A stretch of DNA of 64,000 bases, from positions 186,001 through 250,000 of the forward strand of contig NC_090014.1 in the NCBI RefSeq assembly GCF_036417845.1, in the 5' to 3' direction. Below the pieces are notes generated by a model. The model was given only the letters and a program-made list of their open reading frames with translations. It did no database searches and was not told the origin of the DNA. Both the position numbers and the translations under genes were made by a program. Below, one piece after another: positions 1 to 62,300 of the stretch. How positions within the stretch are numbered: position 1 is the first letter of the stretch; every line of letters begins with the position of its first letter. Source of the stretch: Apteryx mantelli. Lineage: Eukaryota; Chordata; Aves; Apterygiformes; Apterygidae.

Positions 1-316
1 CCCCCTCCCCCTCCCCGCGGCGGGGCCCAGGCGTCCGGGCGGACAGACAGCACGGTGGAAAGGGGGGGATGGAGGACAGGGGGACGGGACACACACGGGG
101 ACGGACGGACAGACAGACAGACAGCCAGCCAGAGCCACGCGCCGGGGGGGGGGGGGACGGCGGACGGGGGGGGCCATCAGGGCCGTGCAGCGCCCGAGGC
201 GGCGGGGGCGGGGGGCTGCTCCCCCCGGGGGCGGGGGGGGGGGGAGGGGGAGGGGGGGAGGGGGGTTGCCCGCATGCAGGGGCCCAGGCGTCCGGGGGCA
301 AGGCCGAGGCGCCTAC
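1..316. other. MARK2 intron, left edge
   Basis: C- and G-run sequence with CAGGCGTCCGG motifs and several GACAGACA/GACGGACG tetramer-type runs (about 95-125). No exon is seen; the missing KA1 exons must lie further left. Confidence 0.6.
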
Positions 317-21813
<21,497 letters not shown>

Positions 21814-23391: not shown

Positions 23392-29455
<6,064 letters not shown>

Positions 29456-46559: not shown

Positions 46560-47110
46560 GGGCAAAGGAGGGGATTCTCTGATGTCTCGTATAGGGGTTG
46601 CTCCCCCCCCCCCCCGGCCACGTTTCGGGGTCAGAGGGCACCGGGGCAGGGGTGGCTGCCCGGACGCCTGGGCCCCTTCGCCTGGGGGTGGCCGCCCGGA
46701 CGCCTGGGCCCCTGGGAGGGGATTCTCGGATGTGTCATATAGGGGTTGCGCCCCCCCCCCCCACCCCACCCCCGCCACGGTTTCGGGGTCAGAGGGCACC
46801 GGGGCAAGGGTGATGGGCCGGACGCCTGGGCCCCTTCGCCTCCGCGTGTGGTGGGGGTGGGAGGCCCGGACGCCTGGGCCCCCTGCTGCGGGGGAGGGGG
46901 GAGGAGGGATCCTCTGATGTGTCATATAGGGGTTGGGCCTCCCCCCCCCACCACACCTTTTGGGGGGGGGGGAGTCAGAGGGCACCGGGGCAAAGGCGAG
47001 CGCCCGGACGCCTGGGCCCCTTCACCCGGACGCCGGGGCCCCTCGCTGGCGGGGGTGGGTGGATTCTCCGCTGTCTCGTATAGGGGTTGTGCTGCCGGGG
47101 CCGGTTTCGG
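46560..47110. repeat. 150-190 bp tandem repeat next to the PC start exon
   Basis: Four copies beginning GATTCTCTGATGTCTCGTAT or variants (about 46573, 46720, 46908, 47060), each with GTCAGAGGGCACCGGGGC and GGACGCCTGGGCCCC. Confidence 0.88.
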
Positions 47111-47231
47111 GAGCCGGGGGGGGGGTGCCGGGAGCGCCCGGACGCCGGGGCCCCTCGCTGCGGCGGGGCAGGGGCAGGGGCGGGGGGGGCCGCGGAGCCT
47201 CGCTGACGCCGCGACCCCCCCCCCCCCCCAG

Positions 47232-47364: not shown

Positions 47365-50300
47365 GTGAGTGTCCCCCCGCGTCCCTGTCCCCCCCCCCCG
47401 GGTGTCCCCCTGTGTGTCCCCGTGTCCCGGGGTTGGTGGCCGGGCGAGGTCACCCCAGGGGCGTCCCCGTGTCCCCATGTCCCTGTGTCCCCATGTCCCC
47501 GTGGGCCCCCGCGTCCCTGTGTCCCCACAGTCCTGCGTCCCCGTGTCCTTGTGTCCCCATGACCCTGTCCCCATCCCCGTGTGCCCCTGTCCCCACATCC
47601 CTGTGTCCCCACATCCCACATCCCCTTGTCCCTGTGTGTCCCCGTGTCCCACATCCCCATGTCCTCACATCCCCACGTCCCCATATCCCTGTGTCCCCAT
47701 GTCCTTGTGTCCCTGTGTCCCCATGACCCTGTCCCCATCCCCGTGTCCCCCCTTGTCCCCACATCCCCCCGTGTCCCCATGTCCTTGTGTCCCCGTGTCC
47801 CCTTGTCCCCACACCCCCCCATGTCCCCTCATGTCCCCGTGTCCCCCCGTGCATCCCCATGTCCCCCCTTGTCCCCACAACCCCCTGTGCCCCCCGATGT
47901 CCCCGGGTGCCCCCATGTCCCCCCGTGTCCCCCCATGTCCCCATGTCCCTGGGTGCCCCCCCGTCCCCCCGCATGTCCCCGCGTGCCCCCACGTCGCCCC
48001 GTGTCCCCTCGCAGGCGAGATCGCCATCCGGGTGTTCCGGGCGTGCACGGAGCTGGGCATCCGCACGGTGGCCGTCTACTCGGAGCAGGACACGGGCCAG
48101 ATGCACCGGCAGAAGGCGGACGAGGCCTATCTGGTGGGGCGGGGGCTGCCGCCCGTGCAGGCCTACCTGCACGCGCCCGACATCCTGCGCGTCGCCCAGG
48201 TGCGCCCGGACGCCGGGGCCCCTTTGCGGGGGGGGGGGGGGGGGGGGGGCCGGACGCCTGGGCCCCTTTGGGGGGGGAGCCCGGACGCCTGGGCCCTGGG
48301 GCGCAGGCCTACCTGCACGCGCCCGACATCCTGCGCGTCGCCCAGGTGCGCCCGGACGCCGGGGCCCCTTTGCGGGGGGGGGGGGGGGGGGCCGGACGCC
48401 TGGGCCCCGTGGGGAGGGGGGAGCCCGGACGCCTGGGCCCTGGGGCGCAGGCCTACCTGCACGCGCCCGACATCCTGCGCGTCGCCCAGGTGCGCCCGGA
48501 CGCCGGGGCCCCTTTGCGGGGGGGGGGGGGGGCCGGACGCCTGGGCCCCTTTGGGGGGGGGGAGCCTGGACGCCTGGGCCCTGGGGCGCTGGGGTGGGTC
48601 GAGGACGCCTGGGCCCCAGGGAGCCAGCGGTGCCCGGACGCCTGGGCCCCCAGGGTGCTGGGGGGAAGGTCGGAGGACGCCGGGGCCCCAGGATGCTGGT
48701 GGCGCCCGGACACCTGGGCCCTGGGGAGCCGGCAGCACCTGGGCACTGGGGTCCCGGGATGCTGGGGGGGGTCGAGGACGCCTGGGCCCTGGGATGCTGG
48801 GGAGGGGGATGTGGAGGATGCTGGGTCCCCGGGATGCTGGGGGGGATCGAGGATGCCTGGGGGGGGACGCGGAGGACGCCGGGGCCCCCGGGAAGCTGAC
48901 GGCACCCGGACCCGGACGCCTGGGCCCTGGGATGGTGGGGGGGGACGTGGAGGACACCAGGTCCCCAGGATGCTGGTGGCGCCTGGACGCCTGGGCCCCG
49001 GGATGGTGGGGGGGGGTTGAGGACGCCTGGGCCCCGGGATGCTGGGGAGGGGGACGCAGAGGACGCCGGGGCCCCGGGATGCTGATGGCGCCCGGACGCC
49101 TGGGCCTCGGGATGCTGGTGGGGGTTGAGGACACCTGGGCTCCGGGGAGCCGGCAGCGCCCGGATGCCTGGGCCTCAGGATGCTGGGGAGGGGGATGTGG
49201 AGGACGCCGGGGCCCCGGGAAGCTGGTGGCACCCGGACGCCTGGGCCCCGGGATGCTGGGGAGGGGGATGTGGAAGATGCTGGGTCCCCGGGATGCTGGG
49301 GGGGATCGAGGATGCCTGGGCCCCGGGGAGCTGGTGGCACCCAGACGCCTGGGCCCCGGGATGCTGGGGAGGGGGTCGGGGACGCCTGGACCCCAGGGAG
49401 CCGGTGGCACCCGGACGCCTGGGCCCCGGGATGCTGGGGAGGGGGGACGCGGAGGACGCCGGGGCCCCGGGATGCTGAGGAGGGGGGGACATGGAGGACA
49501 CCGGGGCCCCGGGATGCTGGTGGCTCTCGGACGCCTGGGCCTCGGGATGCTGGGGAGGGTCGAGGACGCCTGGGCCCCCAGGATGCTGGGGAGGGGGTTG
49601 GGGACACCTGGGCCCCGGGGAGCCAGCAGCGCCCGGACGCCTGGGCCCCGGGATGGTGGGGGGGGGGACGTGGAGGACGCCGGGGCCCCGGGAAGCTGGT
49701 GGCACCCGGACGCCTGGGCCCCGGGATGCTGGGGAGGGGGATGTGGAAGATGCTGGGTCCCCGGGATGCTGGGGGGGATCGAGGATGCCTGGGCCCCGGG
49801 GAGCTGGTGGCGCCCGGACGCCTGGGCCCCGGGATGCTGGGGAGGGGGTCGGGGACGCGGAGGACGCCGGGGCCCCACGGCGCGCCCGCCTCGCCCCGCG
49901 CAGGAGAACGGCGTGGACGCCATCCACCCGGGCTACGGGTTCCTGTCGGAGCGGGCCGAGTTCGCGGAGGCCTGTGCCGGCGCCGGGCTGCGCTTCGTGG
50001 GCCCCTCGCCCCGCGTCGTGCGCATGATGGGCGACAAGGTGGAGGCGCGGCGGCTGGCGCAGCGCGCAGGTGGGGGGCGGCGCGAGGCGGGGGGGGCCGG
50101 GGGGCCGGGAACGGGGGCAGTTATGGGGGGTTATGGGGCGGGAATGGGGGGTTATGGGGGGGTTATGGGGCGGGAATGGGGGGTTATGGGGGGTTATGGG
50201 GGTTATGGGGTGGGAATGGGGGGTTATGGGGCGGTTTTGGGGGTTATGGGGTGGGAATGGGGGGTTACGGGGCGGTTTTGGGGGTTATGGGGCAGGAATG

Positions 50301-53300
50301 GGGGGTTACAGGGGGTTATGGGGTAGGATTAGGGAGTTATGGGGTGGGAATGGGGTGGAAATGGGGGGTTATGGGGGTTATGGGGCGGGAATGGGGGGTT
50401 ATGGGGGGGTTATGGGGTGGGAATGGGGGGTTATGGGGGGTTATGGGGTGGGAATGGGGGGTTATGGGGTGGTTATGGGGGTTATGGGGCAGGAATAGGG
50501 GGTTATGGGGGGTTATGGGGTGGGATTAGGGAGTTATGGGGTAGTTATGGGGTGGGAATGGGGTGGAAATGGGGGGTTATGGGGGTTATGGGGCGGGAAT
50601 GGGGGGTTATGGGGGTTATGGGGTGGGAATGGGGGGTTATGGGGTGGTTATGGGGGTTATGGGTGGGAATGGGGGGTTATGGGGTAGTTAGGGAGCGGGA
50701 ATGGGGGGTTATGGGGGGGTTATGGGGTGGGAATGGGGGGTTATGGGGGGTTATGGGGTGGGAATGGGGGGTTATGGGGTGGTTATGGGGGTTATGGGGC
50801 AGGAATAGGGGGTTATGGGGGGTTATGGGGTGGGATTAGGGAGTTATGGGGTAGTTATGGGGTGGGAATGGGGTGGAAATGGGGGGTTATGGGGGTTATG
50901 GGGCGGGAATGGGGGGTTATGGGGGGTTATGGGGTGGGAATGGGGGGTTATGGGGTGGTTATGGGAGTTATGGGGTGGGAATGGGGGTTATGGGGGGTTA
51001 TGGGGTGGGAATGGGGGGTTATGGGGTAGTTAGGGAGCGGGAATGGGGGGTTATGGGGGTTATGGGGTGGGAATGGGGGGTTATGGGGTAGTTATGGGGT
51101 GGGAATGGGGTGGAAGTGGGGGGTTATGGGGCGGGAATGGAAGGTTTTGGGGTGGTTATGGGGGTTATGGGGTAGTTATGGAGAGGAATTGGGAGGTTAT
51201 GGGGCGGAAATGGGGGGTTATGGGTGGTTATGGGGCAGGAATAAAAGGTTTTGGGGGGGTTATGGGGGTTATGGGGTGGGAATGGGGGGTCTGGGGGGTT
51301 ATGGGGCAGGAATGGGGGGGTTGTGGGGGTTATGGGGAGGGATTGGGGGTTATGGGGTGGGAATGGGGGGTTATAGGGGTTATGGGGCAGGAATGAGAGG
51401 TTATGGGGGGTTATGAGGTGGTTATGGGGGTTATGGGGTAGGAATGGGGGTTATGGGTGGCAATGGGGGGGTTATGGGGGGTTATGGGGCAGGTTGTGGG
51501 GTTACGGGGTGGAAATGGGGTATAATGGGGTTTATGGGGTGAGAATAGAGAGTTATGGGGTGGTTACGGGGGCTTGTGGGTCCGGCCGTGGGTCCGGCCG
51601 TGGGTCCGACCCTTCTCCCCCCCCCCCCCCCCAGGGGTGCCGGTGGTGCCGGGGACGGCGGCGCCGGTGGCGGCGCTGGCCGAGGCCGAGGCCTTCGCGC
51701 GGGACGCCGGCTTCCCCGTCATCCTCAAGGCCGCCCATGGCGGCGGCGGCCGCGGCATGCGCGTCGTCCGCGCCCCCCAGGTACGCGGGCCCCGGCGGCC
51801 GGGACCCCCCCGACCCCCCCCCGATCCCGCCCCACGGGGCCCCGGCGGCCGGGACCCCCCGACCCCCCCCCGATCCTGCCCCACGGGGCCCCGGCGTCCG
51901 GGACCCCCCGACCCCCCCCCGATCCTGCCCCACGGGGCCCCGGCGGCCGGGACCCCCCCGACCCCCCCCACCCCAACCCCACCCCATGGAGCCCCGGTGT
52001 CCGGGACCCCCCCGACCCCCCCCCGATCCCGCCCCATGGGGCCCCGGCATCCGGGACCCCCCAACCACCCCCGACCTCACCCCACGGGGCCCCAGCGTCC
52101 GGGACCCCCCCGACCCCCCCCGATCCTGCCCCACGGGGCCCCGGCGGCCGGGACCCCCCGACCCCCCCCGATCCTGCCCCACGGGGCCCCGGCATCCGGG
52201 ACCCCCCAACCACCCCCGATCCCGCCCCACGGGGCCCTGGCGTCCGGGACACCCCCGACCCCCCCCAATCCCTCCCCACGGGGCCCCGGCGTCCGGGACA
52301 CCCCCGACCCCCCCCCGATCCAACCCCACGGGGCCCCAGCGTCCAGGACCCCCCCAATCCTGCCCCATGGGGCCCCGGTGTCTGGGACCCCCCCGAACCC
52401 CCCCAACCTCGCCCCATGGGGCCCCAGCGTCCGGGACCCCCCTGACCCCCCCCCGATCCCGCCCCACAGGGCCCCGGCATCCGGGACCCCCCCAATCCCC
52501 CCCAAACTCACCCCACGGGGCCCCAGCGGCTGGGACCCCCCTGACCCCCCCCGATCCTGCCCCACGGGGGCCCCGGCGTCCGGGATCCCTGCACCCTCGG
52601 GTGGGACCCAGGCATCCGGGTGGCTCCAAGCCTTGGGAGACGAGGGGACCCAGGCGTCCGGGTGAAGGACCCAGGCGTCCGGGTGAAGGACACCGATGGC
52701 TCCGTGCCCCGGGGAGGCCCGGACGGGGTGGCACCCGGGGCATCCGGGCGACCGCGGGGCCCAGGCGTCCGGGCGACGTTCCCGCAGGAGCTGGAGGAGA
52801 ACTTCACCCGCGCGTCCTCGGAGGCCCTGGCCGCCTTCGGCGACGGCGCCCTCTTCGTGGAGAAGTTCGTCGAGCGCCCGCGGCACATCGAGGTCCAGAT
52901 CCTGGGTGAGGGGGCGGCGCCGGGGGGGGGGGCCCGGACGCCTGGGCCCCCCGCGGTGGCTGACCCCCCTCCCCACCACCGCAGGGGACCATCACGGCAA
53001 CGTGATCCACCTCTACGAGCGCGACTGCTCCATCCAGCGGCGGCACCAGAAGGTGGTGGAGATCGCGCCGGCCGCCTGCCTCGACCCCCAGCTCCGCGCC
53101 CGCCTGGCCGCCGACGCCGTCCGCCTCGCCCAGGAGGTGCCGCGGGGGGCCCCGGCGTCCGGGCGGCGGTTCCCACCCCCCTCCCTGGGGACCCAGGCGT
53201 CCGGGGAGCCGTCACCCTCCCGGGGGACCCAGGCGTCCGGGGCACCCAAGCATCAAGGGACCCAGGCGTCCGGGGGTGGCGGGACCCAGGCGTCCGGGGG

Positions 53301-56300
53301 TGAAGGGACCCAGGCGTCCAGGATGGTGGGGCCCAGGCGTCCGGGGGGTGGCGGGGCCCAGGCGTCCGGGGGTGAAGGGACCCAGGCGTCCAGGATGGTG
53401 GGGCCCAGGCGTCCGGGGGTGGTGGGGCCCAGGCGTCCGGGGGTGAAGGGACCCAGGCGTCCAGGATGGTGGGGCCCAGGCGTCCGGGGGTGGCGGGGCC
53501 CAGGCGTCCGGGGGTGAAGGGACCCAGGTGTCCGGGGTGGTGGGGCCCAGGCATCCGGGGTGAAGGGACCCAGGCGTCCGGGGGTGGCGGGGCCCAGGCG
53601 TCCGGGGGTGGCGGGGCCCAGGCGTCCAGGGGTGAAGGGACCCAGGTGTCTGGGGTGGCAGGACCCAGGTGTCCGGGGATGGCGGGGCCCAGGCGTCCGG
53701 GCGCCCCGGCGTGGGGGGCCCCGGCGTCCGGGCTGAGGTGCCGGCGGCGCAGGTGGGCTACGAGAACGCCGGCACCGTGGAGTTCCTGGTGGACCAGAAC
53801 GGCTCCTACTACTTCATCGAGGTCAACTCGCGGCTGCAGGTGGAGCACACGGTCACCGAGGAGATCACCGGGTGAGCCGCCCGCCCGGACGCCGGGGCCC
53901 CCGCGGGGTGGGGGTCGGGGTGCCCTGGACACCTGGGTCCCTGGGGGTTGGGGTGTCCCGGACACCTGGGTCCCCAGTGGGTGGGGGGTCAGGGTGCCCC
54001 GGACACCTGGGTCCCTGTGGGTCGGGGCTCCCGGACGCCTGGGCCCGTACAGGGCACTGACGGCCGCGCAGGGTGGACCTGGGTTGGGGGGGGGGGTCGG
54101 GGCTCCCCGGACGCCTGGGCCCCTGGATTGGGGGGGTCGGGGCTCCCCGGACGCCTGGGCCCGCACGGGGCGCTGACAGCCGCGCAGGGTGGACCTGGGT
54201 TGGGGGGGATCGGGGCTCCTGGACGCCTGGGCCCCTGCGGGTTGGGGCTCCCCGGACACCTGGGCCCTCGGGGGGCGGGGGGGGTCGGGGCTCCCGGACG
54301 CCTGGGCCCCTGGATTGGGGGGGGTCGGGGCTCCCGGACGCCTGGGTCCCTGTGGGTCGGGGCTCCCTGGACGCCTGGGCCCGCACGGGGCGCTGACGGC
54401 CGCGCAGGGTGGACGTGGGTTGGGGGGGGGGTCGGGGCTCCCGGACGCCTGGGCCCCTGCGGGTCGGGGCTCCCCGGACGCCTGGGCCCCTGGATTGGGG
54501 GGGGTCGGGGCTCCCGGACGCCTGGGCCCGCACGGGGCGCTGACGGCCGTGCAGGGTGGACCTGGGTTGGGGGGGGTCGGGGCTCCCGGACGCCTGGGCC
54601 CCTGCGGGTCGGGGCTCCCGGACGCCTGGGCCCCTGGATTGGGGGGGGTCGGGGCTCCCCGGACGCCTGGGCCCGCACGGGGCGCTGACGGCCGCGCAGG
54701 GTGGACCTGGTGCACGCGCAGCTGCGGGTGGCCGAGGGCCGCAGCCTGCCGGAGCTGGGGCTGCGCCAGGACGCGGTGCGGGTGCACGGCTGCGCCATCC
54801 AGTGCCGCGTCACCACCGAGGACCCGGCCCGCGGCTTCCAGCCCGACACCGGCCGCATCGAGGTGACGCCTCCCTGGGCACCCTATAGGATCCGTACGGC
54901 CCGGCCCCGGAGCCCTGCACACCCTATGGGGTCCATGTGGCCCGGCCCCAGCATCCCCCTGCACCCTATGGGCTCCATACGGCCCGGCCCCCGTGCCCCA
55001 CACACCCTATAGGATCCATACAGCCCAGCCCCGGTGCCCCACACACCCTATAGGATCCATACGGCCCGGCCCCAGCATCCCCCTGCACCCTATGGGCTCC
55101 ATACGGCCTGGCCCCCGTGCCCCACACACCCTATGGGGTCCATATGGCCCAGCCCCAGAGCCCTGCGCACCCTATAGGATCCATACGGCCCGGCCCCAGC
55201 ATCCCCCTGCACCCTATGGGCTCCATACAGCCCAGCCTCCATGCCCCACGCACCCTATGGACTCCATATGGCCTGGCCCCGGCACCCCCCTGTGCCCTAT
55301 GGGCTCCATACAGCCCGACCCTGAGGCCCTGCACACCCTATGGGCTCCATATGGCCCAGCCCCAGAGCCCTGCACACCCTATGGGCTCCATACGGCCCGG
55401 CCCCAGCGCCCCCCTGCACCCTATGGGGTCTGTACAGCCCAGCCCTGAGGCCCTGGGCACCCTATGGGCTCCATACGGCCCCAGCCACGTGGCCCCGGCA
55501 CCCGTACGGGGTCCATACAGCCTGGCCCTGATGTCCTGGGTCCCCATATGGGGGCTATACGGACTGGTCTGTGTGGCCTGGGCACCCTATGGAGCCCATA
55601 TGGACCAGCCCTGATGCCCTGCACACCCTATGGGGACCATACGGCCCGGCCCTGAGGCCCTGGGCACCCTATGGGCTCCATACGGCCCCAGCCACGTGGT
55701 CCCGGCACCCGTACGGGGTCCATACAGCCCGGCCCCGATGTCCTGGGTACCTGTATGGGGTCTGTATGGACTGGTGTCCCCGTGTGTCCCCCCATGTCCC
55801 CCCATGTCCCCCCATGTCCCCGTGTCCCCATGCACGGCGGTGACACGGCGGCTCCGTCCCCGCAGGTGTTCCGCAGCGGCGAGGGCATGGGCATCCCCGT
55901 GTCCCCATGTCCCCCATGTCCCCGTGTCCCCATGTCCCCCGTGTCCCCATGTGTCCCCATGTCCCCATGCATGGTGGCATGGCAGTGACACGGCGGCGGC
56001 TCCGTCCCCGCAGGTGTTCCGCAGCGGCGAGGGCATGGGCATCCCCGTGTCCCCCGTGTCCCCATGTGTCCCTGTGTCCCCCCATGTCCCTGTGTCCCCA
56101 TGCATGGTGGCAGCATGGTGACACGGCGGCGGCTCCGTCCCCGCAGGTGTTCCGCAGCGGCGAGGGCATGGGCATCCGGCTGGACGGCGCCTCGGCCTTC
56201 CAGGGCGCCCTCATCTCGCCCCACTACGACTCGCTGCTGGTGAAGGTGGTGGCCCACGGCCCCGACCAGCCGGCCGCCGCCGCCAAGATGCGCCGCGCCC

Positions 56301-59300
56301 TGGCCGAGTTCCGCATCCGCGGCGTCAAGGTGCCGCGCGGGGGACGTGACGCGTGCGCGGGGACGTGTGCAGGGGGGTGCGACGCACGGGGACACATGCG
56401 CGGGGCTCGTGCGATGCAGAACGACGCACACGGGGCTCGAGCGATGCACAGGGATGCACACAGGGCTCGTGCGATGCACAGGGATGCGCACGGAGCTCGT
56501 GCGATGCAGAACGACGCACACGGGGCTCGTGCAATGCACAGGGACACACACGGGGCTCATGCGATGCACAGGGATGTGCACGGAGCTCGTGCAATGCACA
56601 GGGACATGCGCAGGGCTCATGCGATGCACAGGGACACACACGGGGCTCATGCGATGCACAGGGATGCACACGGGGCTTGTGCAATGCACAGGGACGTGTG
56701 CAGGGCTCATGCGATGCACAGGGATGCACACAGGGCTCGTGCGATGCACAGGGATGTGCACGGAGCTCGTGCAATGCACAGGGACGTGTGCAGGGCTCAT
56801 GCGATGCGCAGGGATGCACACAGGGCTCGTGCGATGCACAGGGATGTGCACGGAGCTCGTGCAATGCACAGGGACATGCGCAGGGCTCATGCGATGCGCA
56901 GGGATGCACACAGGGCTCGTGCAATGCACAGGGATGTGTTCAAGGCTTGTGCAATGCACAGGGACCTGCACAGGGCTCGTGTGATGCACAGGGGCGTGCA
57001 CAGGGGTGTGTGGCGCACAGGGACACATGCACACGGCTCATGCAATGCACAGGGATGTGCATGGGGCTCGTGCGATGCACAAGGATCTGCACAGGGCTCA
57101 TGTGATGCGCAAGGATGTGTGCAGGAGTGTGCAATGCACAGGGACAGGCACAGAGCTCGTGCAATGCACAGGGACGTGTGCAGGGCTCATGCGATGCACA
57201 GGGATGCACACGGGGCTTGTGCAATGCACAGGGATGTGCAGGGGGCTCGTGCAATGCACAGGGCATGCACAGGGGTGTGCGACGCACGGGGACATGTGCA
57301 CGGGGCTCGTGTGATGCACAAGGACGCATGCGGGGCTCGTGTGATGCACAGGGATGTGCAGGGAGCTCATGTGATGTACAGGGATGTGTGCAGGGCTCGT
57401 GAAATGCACAGGGACGTGCAGGTGGTTCGTGCAATGCATGGGGATGTGCACAGGGCTCATGCAATGCACAGGGATGCGTGCAGGCTCGTGCAATGCACAG
57501 GGATGTGCAGGGGGCTCATGTGATGCACAGGGACGTGCGCGGGGCTCGTGCGATGCACAGGGACGTGCGCAGGGCTCATGCAATGCACAGGGATGTGTGC
57601 AGGGCTCGTGCAATGCACAGGGATGTGCAGGTGGTTCGTGCAATGCATGGGGATGTGCACAGGGCTCATGCAATGCACAGGGATGCGTGCAGGCTCGTGC
57701 AATGCACAGGGATGTGCAGGGGGCTCATGTGATGCACAGGGACGTGCGCGGGGCTCGTGCGATGCACAGGGACGTGCGCAGGGCTCATGCAATGCACAGG
57801 GATGTGTGCAGGGCTCGTGCAATGCACAGGGATGTGCAGGTGGTTCGTGCAATGCATGGGGATGTGCACAGGGCTCATGCAATGCACAGGGATGTGCGCA
57901 GGGCTCATGAAATGCACAGGGACGTGCAGGTGGTTCGTGCAATGCATGGGGATGTGCACAGGGCTCATGCAATGCACAGGGATGCGTGCAGGCTCGTGCA
58001 ATGCACAGGGATGTGCAGGGGGCTCATGTGATGCACAGGGACGTGCGCGGGGCTCGTGCGATGCACAGGGACGTGCGCAGGGCTCATGCAATGCACAGGG
58101 ATGTGTGCAGGGCTCGTGCAATGCACAGGGATGTGCAGGTGGTTCGTGCAATGCACAAGGATGAGCGCAGGGCTCGTGCAATGCACAGGGATGTGCAGGG
58201 GGTTCGTGCAATGCACAGGGATGCGTGCAAGCTCGTGTGATGCACAGGGATGTGCAGGGGGCTCATGTGATGCACGGGGACGTGCGCGGGGCTCGTGCAA
58301 TGCACAGGGATGTGCAGGGGGCTTGTGCCATGCACAGGGGTGTGTGCAGGGGGGTGCGACACACGGGGACACGTGCACAGGGCTCGTGCAATGCACAGGG
58401 ATGTGCAGGGGGCTTGTGCAATGCACGGGGGCATGCGCAGGGGTGTGTGATGCATGGGGACACGTGCATGGGGCTCGTGCGATGCACAGTGACATGCACA
58501 GGGCTCGTGCAATGCACAGGGACGTGCACAGGGCTTGTGCGATGTGCAAGGACGCACATGGGGCTCGTGCGATGCACAGGGACGTGCACAGGGGACGGGT
58601 GACGCGCAGGGGTGTGCGCAGGGCCTGTGCACGGGGCTCGTGCAACGCCTCAGGATGGGGCCTCGTGCGACGCGGGGGGCCCTCGTGCACGGCACAGGGT
58701 GCTCCTCGTGCGACGCACGACTGACTCACGCCGTCGCTTCCCACGGAGCAACATTCCCTTCTTGCAGGACGCGCTGGCCGGGAGCCCTCGTGCAATGCCG
58801 GGGAGCCTCGTGCAATGCCGGGAGCCCTCGTGCGACGCCGGGAGCCCTCGTGCAATGCCAGGAGCCCTCGTGCGATGCCGGGAGCCCTCGTGCGACGCTG
58901 GGAGCTCTCGTGCAATGCCGGGGAGCCTCGTGCAATGCCGGGGAGCCTCGTGCGACGCTGGGAGCTCTCGTGCAATGCTGGGGACCCTTGTGCAATGCCG
59001 GGGAGCCTCGTGCGACGCCGGGAGCTCTCGTGCAATGCCGGGGACCCTCGTGCAATGCCGGGGAGCCTCGTGCGACGCCGGGAGCTCTCATGCAATGCCG
59101 GGGAGCCTCGTGTGCGGCGCGGGGCGCCCCTCGTGCGACGCCCGGCTGACTCACGCCCGTGTTCCTTGCAGACCAACATCCCCTTCCTGCAGAACGTGCT
59201 CGCGCACCCGCAGTTCCTGGGCGGTGCCGTCGACACCCAGTTCATCGACGAGAACCCCGAGCTCTTCCTGCTGCGCCCCGCGCACAACCGCGCCCAGAAG

Positions 59301-62300
59301 CTGCTCCACTACCTGGGTGAGGCGCCGGGGGGGTCCCTGGGGGGGTCCTAGGGGGTCCTTTGGGGTCCTTTGAGGTCCCTAGGGGGGTCCTGGGGGGATC
59401 TAGGGGCGTTCTGGGGGGTTCTTGGGGTCCTTTGGGGTCCCTAGGGGGGGCCGTGGGGGGGTCCTGGGGGGTCCTGGGGTCACTGGGGGGGTCCTGGGGG
59501 GTCCCAGGGGGTCCTTTGGGGTCCTTGGGGGGGTCCCTGGGGTCTCCTGGGGGTCTTGGGGGGTCCCTGGGGGGGTCTAGGGTAGTCCTGGGAGGTCCAT
59601 GGGGTCTCTTGGGGTCCTTGGGGGGGTCCCTGGGGGGTCCCCGGGGTCCTTTGGGGTCCCTAGGGGGATCCCTGGGGGGGTCCTGGGGTCACTGGGGGGG
59701 TCCTTGGGGGTCCCTGGGGGGGGTCTAGGGGCATCCTGGGGGGTCCCTGGGGTCCCTCGGGGGGTCCCTGGGGTCCTTGGGGTCCCTGGGTGGGTCCCTG
59801 GGGGGTCCTGGGGGTCCCTGGGGGGGTCTAGGGGCATCCTGGGAGGTCCATGGGGTCCCTAGGGGGGTCCCTAGGGGGTTCTGGGGGTCTCTGGGGGGTC
59901 TAGGGGAGTCCTGGGGGGTCCCTGGGGACCTTTGGGGTCTCTGGGGGGTCCTGGGGGTCCCTGGGGGGTCCCTGGGGGGGTCTAGGGGAGTCCTGGGGGG
60001 TCCTGGGGGTCCCTGGGGGGGTCCCTGGGGGGTCCTGAGGGAGTTTAGGGGGATCCTGGGGGGTCCCTGGGGTCTCCTGGGGGTCTTGGGGGGTCCCTGG
60101 GGGGGTCTAGGGGGCTTTCTGGGGTCCTTTGGGGTCCCTAGGTGGGTCCCTGGGGGGTCCTGGGGGTCCTTTGGGGTCTCTAGGTGGGTCCTGGGGGGTC
60201 CTGGAGTCCCTGGGGGGGTCTAGGGGCATCCTGGGGGGTTCCTGGGGTCCCTAGGGGGGTCCCTGGAGTCCTTTGGGGTCCCTGGGGGGGTCTAGGGGAG
60301 TCCTGGGAGGTCCCTGGGGTCTCTTGGGGTCCTTGGGGGGTCCCTGGGGGGGTCTAGAGAGATCCTGGGGGGGTCTAGGGGGGTTTCTGGGGTCCTTTGG
60401 GGTCCCTGGGGGTTCTTTGGGGGGGTCTCGGGGGGGTCCAGAAGGGCCCTGGAGGGTCCCTGGGGTCCCTAAGGGGGTCCTGGGGGGTCCCAGGAGGGTC
60501 CCAGGGGTCTTCAAGGGGTCCCTGGGGGGGTTCTGGGGGGTCTTGGGGGGTCCCTGGGGTTCTTTGGGGGGTCTCTGGGGGGGTCCAGAAGGGTCCTGGG
60601 GGGTCCCTGGGGTCCCTAGGGGGATCCTGGGGGGGTCTGGAGGGTCCCAGGGGTCTTCAAGGGGTCCCTGGGGGGGTCTAGGGGCGTCCTGGGGGGTCTT
60701 GGGGGGTCTCTGGGGTCTCCAGGGGGTCTTGGGGGGGTCCCTGGGGGGGTCCAGAAGGGTCCCGGGGGGTCGCTGGGGGTCTCCGGGGTCCCCCCCGGGT
60801 TTGGGGCTCCCCCCCGGGGGTCCCCGGCCCCCCCCGACCCCCCTCTCGCCCCCCCCCCAGGACACGTGATGGTGAACGGCCCCAGCACCCCGCTGCCCGT
60901 GCAGGCCAAGGCGGCGCCCGTGGAGCCCGCGGCCCCCCCCGTGCCCGTGGGTGAGCGTCACACGCGTGTGCTCGGCGTGTTCCCCCTCCCCCGTGCCCGT
61001 GGGTGAGCGTCACACGCGTGTGCTCGGCGTGTTCCCCCTCCCCGTGCCCGTGGGTGAGCGTCACACGCGTGTGCTCGGCGTGTTCCCCCTCCCCGGTGCC
61101 CGTGGGTGCGCGTCACACGCGTGTGCTCGGCGTGTTCCCCCTCCCCGTGGTGCCCGTGGGTGAGCGTCACACGCGTGTGCTCGGCGTGTTCCCCCTCCCC
61201 GTGCCCGTGGGTGAGCGTCACACGCGTGTGCTCGGCATGTTCCCCCTCCCCGTGGTGCCCGTGGGTGAGCGTCACACGCGTGTGCTCGGCGTGTTCCCCC
61301 TCCCCGTGGTGCCCGTGGGTGAGCGTCACACGCGTGTGCTCGGCGTGTTCCCCCTCCCCGTGCCCGTGGGTGAGCGTCACACGCGTGTGCTCGGCATGTT
61401 CCCCCTCCCCGTGCCCGTGGGTGAGCGTCACACGCGTGTGCTCGGCGTGTTCCCCCTCCCCCGTGCCCGTGGGTGAGCGTCACACGCGTGTGCTCGGCGT
61501 GTTCCCCCTCCCCCGTGCCCGTGGGTGAGCGTCACACGCGTGTGCTCGGCGTGTTCCCCCTCCCTGTGCCCGTGGGTGAGCGTCACACGCGTGTGCTCGG
61601 CGTGTTCCCCCTCCCCGTGCCCGTGGGTGAGCGTCACACGTGTGTGCTCGGCGTGTTCCCCCTCCCCGTGCCCGTGGGTGAGCGTCACACGCGTGTGCTT
61701 AGCGTGTTCCCCCCCCCGGTGCCCCCGTGCACGCGAGCCGTGCGATGCGCCCCCCATGCGTGCAAGGTGTGCGAGCCGTGCGAGGCGCGTGCAAAGCGTG
61801 CGTGGTGCCCCGCGTGCGCTGGGTGCGTGCAGCTCCCCACGCGTGTGCCACGCGTGCCCGGTGCCCCTGCGCTCGCATCGCTGTGTGCTGCACATGCGCT
61901 GCACATGCGCTGTGCCTGCGATGCACATGTGCTGCACATGGAATGCACATGCGATGCACATGCGATGCGTGTGCAATGCACATGCACTGCACGTGTGCTG
62001 CACATGCAATGCACATGCAATGCGTGTGCGATGCACATGTAGTGCACATGCACTGCACATGCAATGCACATGCGCTGTGTGTGCAATGCACATGCAATGC
62101 ACATGCGCTGTGTGTGCGATGCACGTCATGCACATGCAATGCACATGCGATGCGTGTGCGATGCACATGTAGTGCACATGCAATGCACATGCAATGCACA
62201 TGCGATGCGTGTGCGATGCACATGTGATGCACATGCAATGCACATGCAATGCACATGTGATGTGTGTGCGATGCACATGCAATGCACACGCGATGCACAC

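Follow-up and report, generated by a model that had tools for sequence, protein, structure and literature searches.

Tandem copies of exon edges and their splice sites in introns of the pyruvate carboxylase gene of Apteryx mantelli

Tandem copying of exon edges into adjacent introns was described by Hron et al. (2026) on the dot chromosomes of the chicken, where it was named exon stuttering or sequence stuttering (PMC12954441). The main text of that paper reports 115 genes and 236 introns with such copies, 190 of these introns being on dot chromosomes (190 of 5,572 dot-chromosome introns, or 3.4%). It points out that splice sites are copied and that alternative transcripts may result, shows that intron length varies between individual chickens, verifies one gene by raw reads, and also notes expansions in other birds and, with data not shown, in gerbils. 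De Grassi and Ciccarelli described a related phenomenon in 2009 in human segmental duplications, where internal tandem repeats occur at exon-intron boundaries (PMC2812944). Here we report a probable further case of exon stuttering in PC, the pyruvate carboxylase gene, of Apteryx mantelli. The gene begins in a 64,000-nucleotide stretch (contig C37, positions 186001-250000; hereafter the window) of a 1.504-Gb genome of 408 contigs, in which C37 measures 776,894 bp. A preliminary description of the window had treated the pattern as lacking an established description; the chicken work supplies one, splice-site copies included. No second description of exon-edge copying was found in the literature, as judged by titles and the beginnings of abstracts.

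To locate exon-edge copies, every annotated edge was compared with its adjacent intron for ungapped matches that span the boundary and score 6 points or more to either side of it, and the identical edges were searched in non-adjacent introns as a control. Exons were placed by hand. Besides PC, the window holds genes that we take to be MARK2, ZFTA and RTN3 from our reading of their translations, without a database check. Among the 72 window edges of the four genes, four pass, all of them among the 24 PC edges: the donors of exons 2 and 11, with two and 14 copies, and the acceptors of exons 8 and 9, with four and two. All 22 copies match on both sides of the boundary, splice site included, and score at least 45.5, against a top non-adjacent score of 15 across the 72 edges. 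The four passing edges have no passing match in non-adjacent introns, and none of the 48 edges of MARK2, ZFTA and RTN3 passes. This comparison of introns with their flanking exons bears out the copying proposed in the preliminary description for exons 2, 8, 9 and 11. The array proposed at a fifth boundary, the exon 10 acceptor, is instead a single diverged copy whose AG is destroyed. It was found in a gapped search of two of the 72 window edges, and its score (Table 1) exceeds the maxima of 30 for 200 mononucleotide shuffles and 27 for non-adjacent introns. Of 15 further PC edges, from exons 13 to 20, only the exon 13 donor passes, with 53 coding nucleotides and three copies in intron 13, just beyond the window (C37:250120-250678); the PC total is 5 of 39. 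The exon 12 donor, retested against its full intron, has no copies.

The copies lie in tandem order, and the arrays, as delimited by Tandem Repeats Finder (TRF), end 43, 11, 31 and 18 nt inside exons 2, 8, 9 and 11, respectively, while the reading frame of PC remains intact. Each window copy carries 10-43 coding nucleotides, a recount that replaces the earlier figure of 8-39. The exon 11 array, for example, consists of 18 nt of exon 11, the genuine donor and the further donor copies, which match 10-18 coding nucleotides. Inverted exon-edge copies were considered and rejected: none of 40 opposite-strand matches of at least 20 nt reaches 42.1 bits, the best being 40.1.

PC itself is well supported. 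A PDB match to mitochondrial pyruvate carboxylase (7wta, 1059.9 bits) was obtained with the 607-amino-acid portion in the window, which also matches human PC, and with the next 17 kb the gene comprises 20 coding exons encoding 1177 amino acids with a single terminal stop. Because PC is intact and matches human PC, the exon is the source of the copies. The gene occupies one locus in the genome. No second copy or haplotype appears in the 22 matches obtained; the remaining ones, on C1, C9, C17 and C22, are weak.

Table 1. Coordinates of exon-edge copies, core-rich stretches and other features in the window (TRF, Tandem Repeats Finder)
Feature	Position	Strand	Remarks
Exon 2, last 43 nt, original of the repeated donor edge	48157..48199	+	
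Intron 2, copy 1 of exon 2 donor edge	48303..48345	+	43 nt identical, then GTGCGC; 85.7 bits
Intron 2, copy 2 of exon 2 donor edge	48447..48489	+	100% over 43 nt; 85.7 bits
Exon 2 donor array, ~144-bp unit	48157..48589	+	includes core motif; TRF, alignment
Intron 7, copy of exon 8 acceptor edge	54072..54082	+	11 coding nt
Intron 7, copy of exon 8 acceptor edge	54188..54198	+	
Intron 7, copy of exon 8 acceptor edge	54408..54418	+	one coding mismatch
Intron 7, copy of exon 8 acceptor edge	54555..54565	+	
Genuine exon 8 acceptor edge, array end	54700..54710	+	TRF array 54277-54710, 11 nt into exon
Intron 8, copy 1 of exon 9 acceptor edge	55866..55896	+	31 coding nt, 100%; 61.9 bits
Intron 8, copy 2 of exon 9 acceptor edge	56014..56044	+	31 coding nt, 100%; 61.9 bits
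Genuine exon 9 acceptor edge	56147..56177	+	
Exon 10 acceptor edge, one diverged copy	58690..58778	+	89 bp; gapped score 79
Exon 11 donor array, 51-bp unit	60933..61724	+	TRF, 15.3 copies, 95% matches
Core array in PC intron 6 (example)	53257..53701	-	24-bp unit
Core-rich stretch (example)	4695-5396		
Core-rich stretch (example)	46662-47154		
Core-rich stretch (example)	48208-49876		
Core-rich stretch (example)	53188-53729		
Core-rich stretch (example)	54109-54675		
ZFTA intron 3, genuine donor and donor-like copies	28088..28902	+	genuine donor at 28088
MARK2 intron 1, low repeat coverage	11168-21756		
RTN3 intron 1, low repeat coverage	34903-35491		
PC 5' intron, low repeat coverage	43329-47231		

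The PC arrays resemble chicken exon stuttering, as presented in the main text of PMC12954441, in that the lateral part of an exon, with its splice site, is repeated as imperfect tandem copies in the adjacent intron, the introns are filled with repeats, the exon is intact, the copies are local to the gene and the rate of passing introns is similar. That rate was estimated with an exon-only BLASTn screen modelled on Hron et al., with cuts of 20 nt and 42.1 bits. Two of the 37 window introns, PC introns 2 and 8, pass with four proximal matches of 61.9-85.7 bits, and none of 28 distal matches does. At the chicken dot-chromosome rate, at least two passing introns among 37 would be expected with P=0.36, and by this screen the window is compatible with an ordinary stretch of a chicken-type dot chromosome. 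One of 20 shuffles exceeded the cut, at 44.1 bits, so the cut is imperfect on this window. Among the window exons screened, PC exons 2 and 9 reach the published cut and exons 8, 10 and 11 do not; unlike the chicken cases, then, three PC window edges fall under the published 20-nt or 42.1-bit limit. Some PC units also carry a core found genome-wide, in contrast to the stress on local origin in the main text of PMC12954441. That main text mentions neither ZFTA nor the full name pyruvate carboxylase; its gene list sits in the supplement, and PC may be on it. The PC repeats are like those of PMC2812944, as far as the excerpted text of that paper goes, in being boundary minisatellite expansions able to alter splicing. 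The human repeats, however, lengthen exons or create new introns in recent paralogs, whereas in PC the reading frame is intact and the copies are intronic.

The genomic setting is likewise repeat-rich, in a genome that differs from that of the chicken, which is smaller than 1.504 Gb. The GC content is 0.70, and tandem repeats make up 50% of the window and 58% of C37:1-300000. They cover 7.5% of exonic sequence and a fraction of at least 0.8 of most PC introns (0.94, 0.99, 0.92 and 0.89 for introns 2, 7, 8 and 11, and 0.92 for intron 13). From its gene content and composition, the contig is probably a bird dot chromosome.

Several of the repeat arrays share a sharply bounded core. The 18-mer GGGRCCCAGGCGTCCGGG has 7,724 exact copies in the genome, and the reversed pattern has none. 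Among the matches listed, which are the first 100 in contig order, 40 lie on C1-C10, a count that this order suggests is complete for these contigs; on C1 and C2, 26 of the 27 copies listed lie no further than 2.03 Mb from a contig end. In the window, the 15-mer GGACGCCTGGGCCCC has 137 matches with at most two mismatches on both strands, against 4.1 expected. The 18-mer with at most three mismatches is found in 10 of 37 introns, and one exact 14-mer is common to eight introns, compared with two or three in 50 resampled sets. Conservation per column was taken from anchoring on half of the core in C37:1-300000, with rows selected by core matches set aside. The other half is conserved at 0.76-0.99 per column, and values outside drop at once to 0.33-0.60. 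After low-complexity filtering, the core is the most widespread 16-mer of C37:1-300000, occupying 33 of the 60 bins, against 9 for the next family unrelated to it.

Core arrays with other spacers occur on C2 and C11 as well as on C37, and the core is also present as isolated copies, for example in PC intron 5 and MARK2 intron 3. In PC, the exon 2 and exon 8 units both contain the core or a near variant of it, with matches at 48252, 48394 and 48535 in the exon 2 array; PC introns 12-19 contain no exact 11-mer of the core. The 18-mer occurs in two viral contigs, and no doubled core was found in the viral_contigs collection. A literature search with a core 11-mer in both orientations returned no bird paper by title, to which little weight attaches as repeats are rarely printed. 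In having a short GC-rich core, many arrays with private spacers and, on large chromosomes, a location mostly near the ends, these repeats are like minisatellite cores of the Jeffreys type. They differ from that type in the core sequence itself, in the sharp-edged isolated copies and, judging from the matches listed, in their concentration outside the first ten contigs.

The exon-edge units create candidate decoy splice sites, as the preliminary description had anticipated. By an approximate frequency matrix, 21 of the 22 window decoys score within 0.5 bits of the genuine site. The exon 2 unit also holds a 39-nt block between AG and GT that would be in frame as a micro-exon; its acceptor scores 0.2, compared with 10.0 for the genuine exon 2 acceptor. 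With the reading carried through exon 12, extension of the exon to a decoy would introduce a stop in both cases at exon 2, three of the four at exon 8, both at exon 9 and 13 of the 14 at exon 11. The two stop-free extensions, one at exon 8 and one at exon 11, are out of frame. At exon 13, one of three decoys gives an early stop, and for the donors at +258 and +402 the reading frame runs uninterrupted as far as the natural end.

We consider it probable that these arrays are exon-edge minisatellites of the exon-stuttering kind, produced by tandem duplication and subsequent multiplication. On a GC-rich, repeat-saturated small chromosome, a tandem duplication between a point in the intron and a point lying a few to tens of bases within the exon would yield a unit made of exon edge, splice site and some intron, which slippage or unequal exchange could then multiply. 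Slippage, unequal exchange and end joining are all possible mechanisms. Selection on the reading frame would presumably halt growth into the exon, and growth only into the intron fits such selection. The decoys would mostly be tolerated because the site nearest the exon is preferred under exon definition, and might be near-neutral passengers with occasional mis-splicing. Several points weigh against this account. The intronward position of the copies follows partly from the design, as only introns were searched, and another TRF row enters exon 9 by 77 nt. Junction homology is short and ambiguous, for example 2 nt at exon 2. When exon 13 is left out, differences among units number 1 of 332 in coding and 15 of 842 in intronic positions (P=0.052), which could hint at constraint. 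Finally, the account draws on one assembly, in which the dot-chromosome status is itself presumed. With exon 13 included, the counts are 5 of 491 and 17 of 899 (P=0.26), and constraint on the coding part of the decoys was rejected with these two values in view. An excess of G-quadruplex motifs in the exon-edge arrays was also tried and rejected as inconsistent (fractions of 0.18, 0.19, 0.26 and 0.05, where introns as a whole have 0.17).

A different trigger, which is compatible with exon-edge duplication, is conceivable though we think it rather doubtful as a general account: arrays might nucleate on the 18-bp core, which is present at thousands of sites on small contigs and near the ends of the largest, and some of them might swallow adjoining exon edges, such as those of PC exons 2 and 8. 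The presence of the core in these two units and in a sizeable share of the window introns, its abundance relative to the reversed pattern and its sharp borders all favor this idea, and the spread of the core speaks against the view that every array arose purely locally; the core could pass between chromosomes by template switching or ectopic conversion. However, the exon 9, 11 and 13 units lack the core, as do many window arrays, and its 11-mers are missing from the later PC introns. Because the exon 2 and exon 8 units hold a core common to many other introns, it is equally likely there that an intronic repeat captured the exon edge and that an array grew from the boundary, so that the growth from splice boundaries advanced earlier is one possible reading.

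Two further explanations touch the copies themselves. If they were retained as functional alternative splice sites or micro-exons, the scores of the decoys, the in-frame 39-nt block and the two open donors of exon 13 would be readily understood. Yet the acceptor of the micro-exon is very weak, nearly all extensions at exons 2, 8, 9 and 11 bring a stop, and coding and intronic rates do not differ significantly, which together make function improbable. Still slightly less probable is an assembly artefact, even though assembly is difficult across poly-G runs and such arrays: the copies differ from one another by substitutions and indels, which speaks against simple assembly duplication, PC is found at one locus only, and in the chicken one gene was verified with raw reads according to the main text of PMC12954441.

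The other genes of the window lie in the order MARK2 (minus strand), ZFTA (plus) and RTN3 (minus), followed by PC coding exons 1-12 (plus). ZFTA intron 3, thought earlier to show the same pattern, has five donor-like GTGAGTGC copies (at 28392, 28455, 28627, 28690 and 28895) whose match stops short of coding sequence, so that only the donor motif is repeated. A second word resembling GGGACATGGGGACAC occurs in PC introns 1 and 8, MARK2 intron 11 and ZFTA introns 2 and 3, these five introns of three genes sharing exact 14-mers; it lies near a short-period repeat, and convergence is possible. Tandem-repeat coverage is low in MARK2 intron 1 (0.14), RTN3 intron 1 as placed (0.00) and the PC 5' intron (0.27). 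Most internal introns differ from these low-repeat first introns, ZFTA intron 1 (0.84) being an exception, and several introns shorter than 140 bp likewise have zero coverage. The donor of MARK2 exon 15 as placed (3132-3260) is GC rather than GT, and two boundaries in the hand annotation, the acceptors of MARK2 exon 16 and RTN3 exon 2, are non-canonical. No RNA families and no tRNAs were found in the window.

PC of Apteryx mantelli adds a very clear case, with five edges in one metabolic gene and one relic, to a process that, going by the main text of PMC12954441, had been reported in detail only in the chicken. It also shows that exon-only screening with a floor of 20 nt overlooks real edges. 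The core shared by some of these units with arrays elsewhere in the genome provides a testable handle on the question of what starts such expansions.

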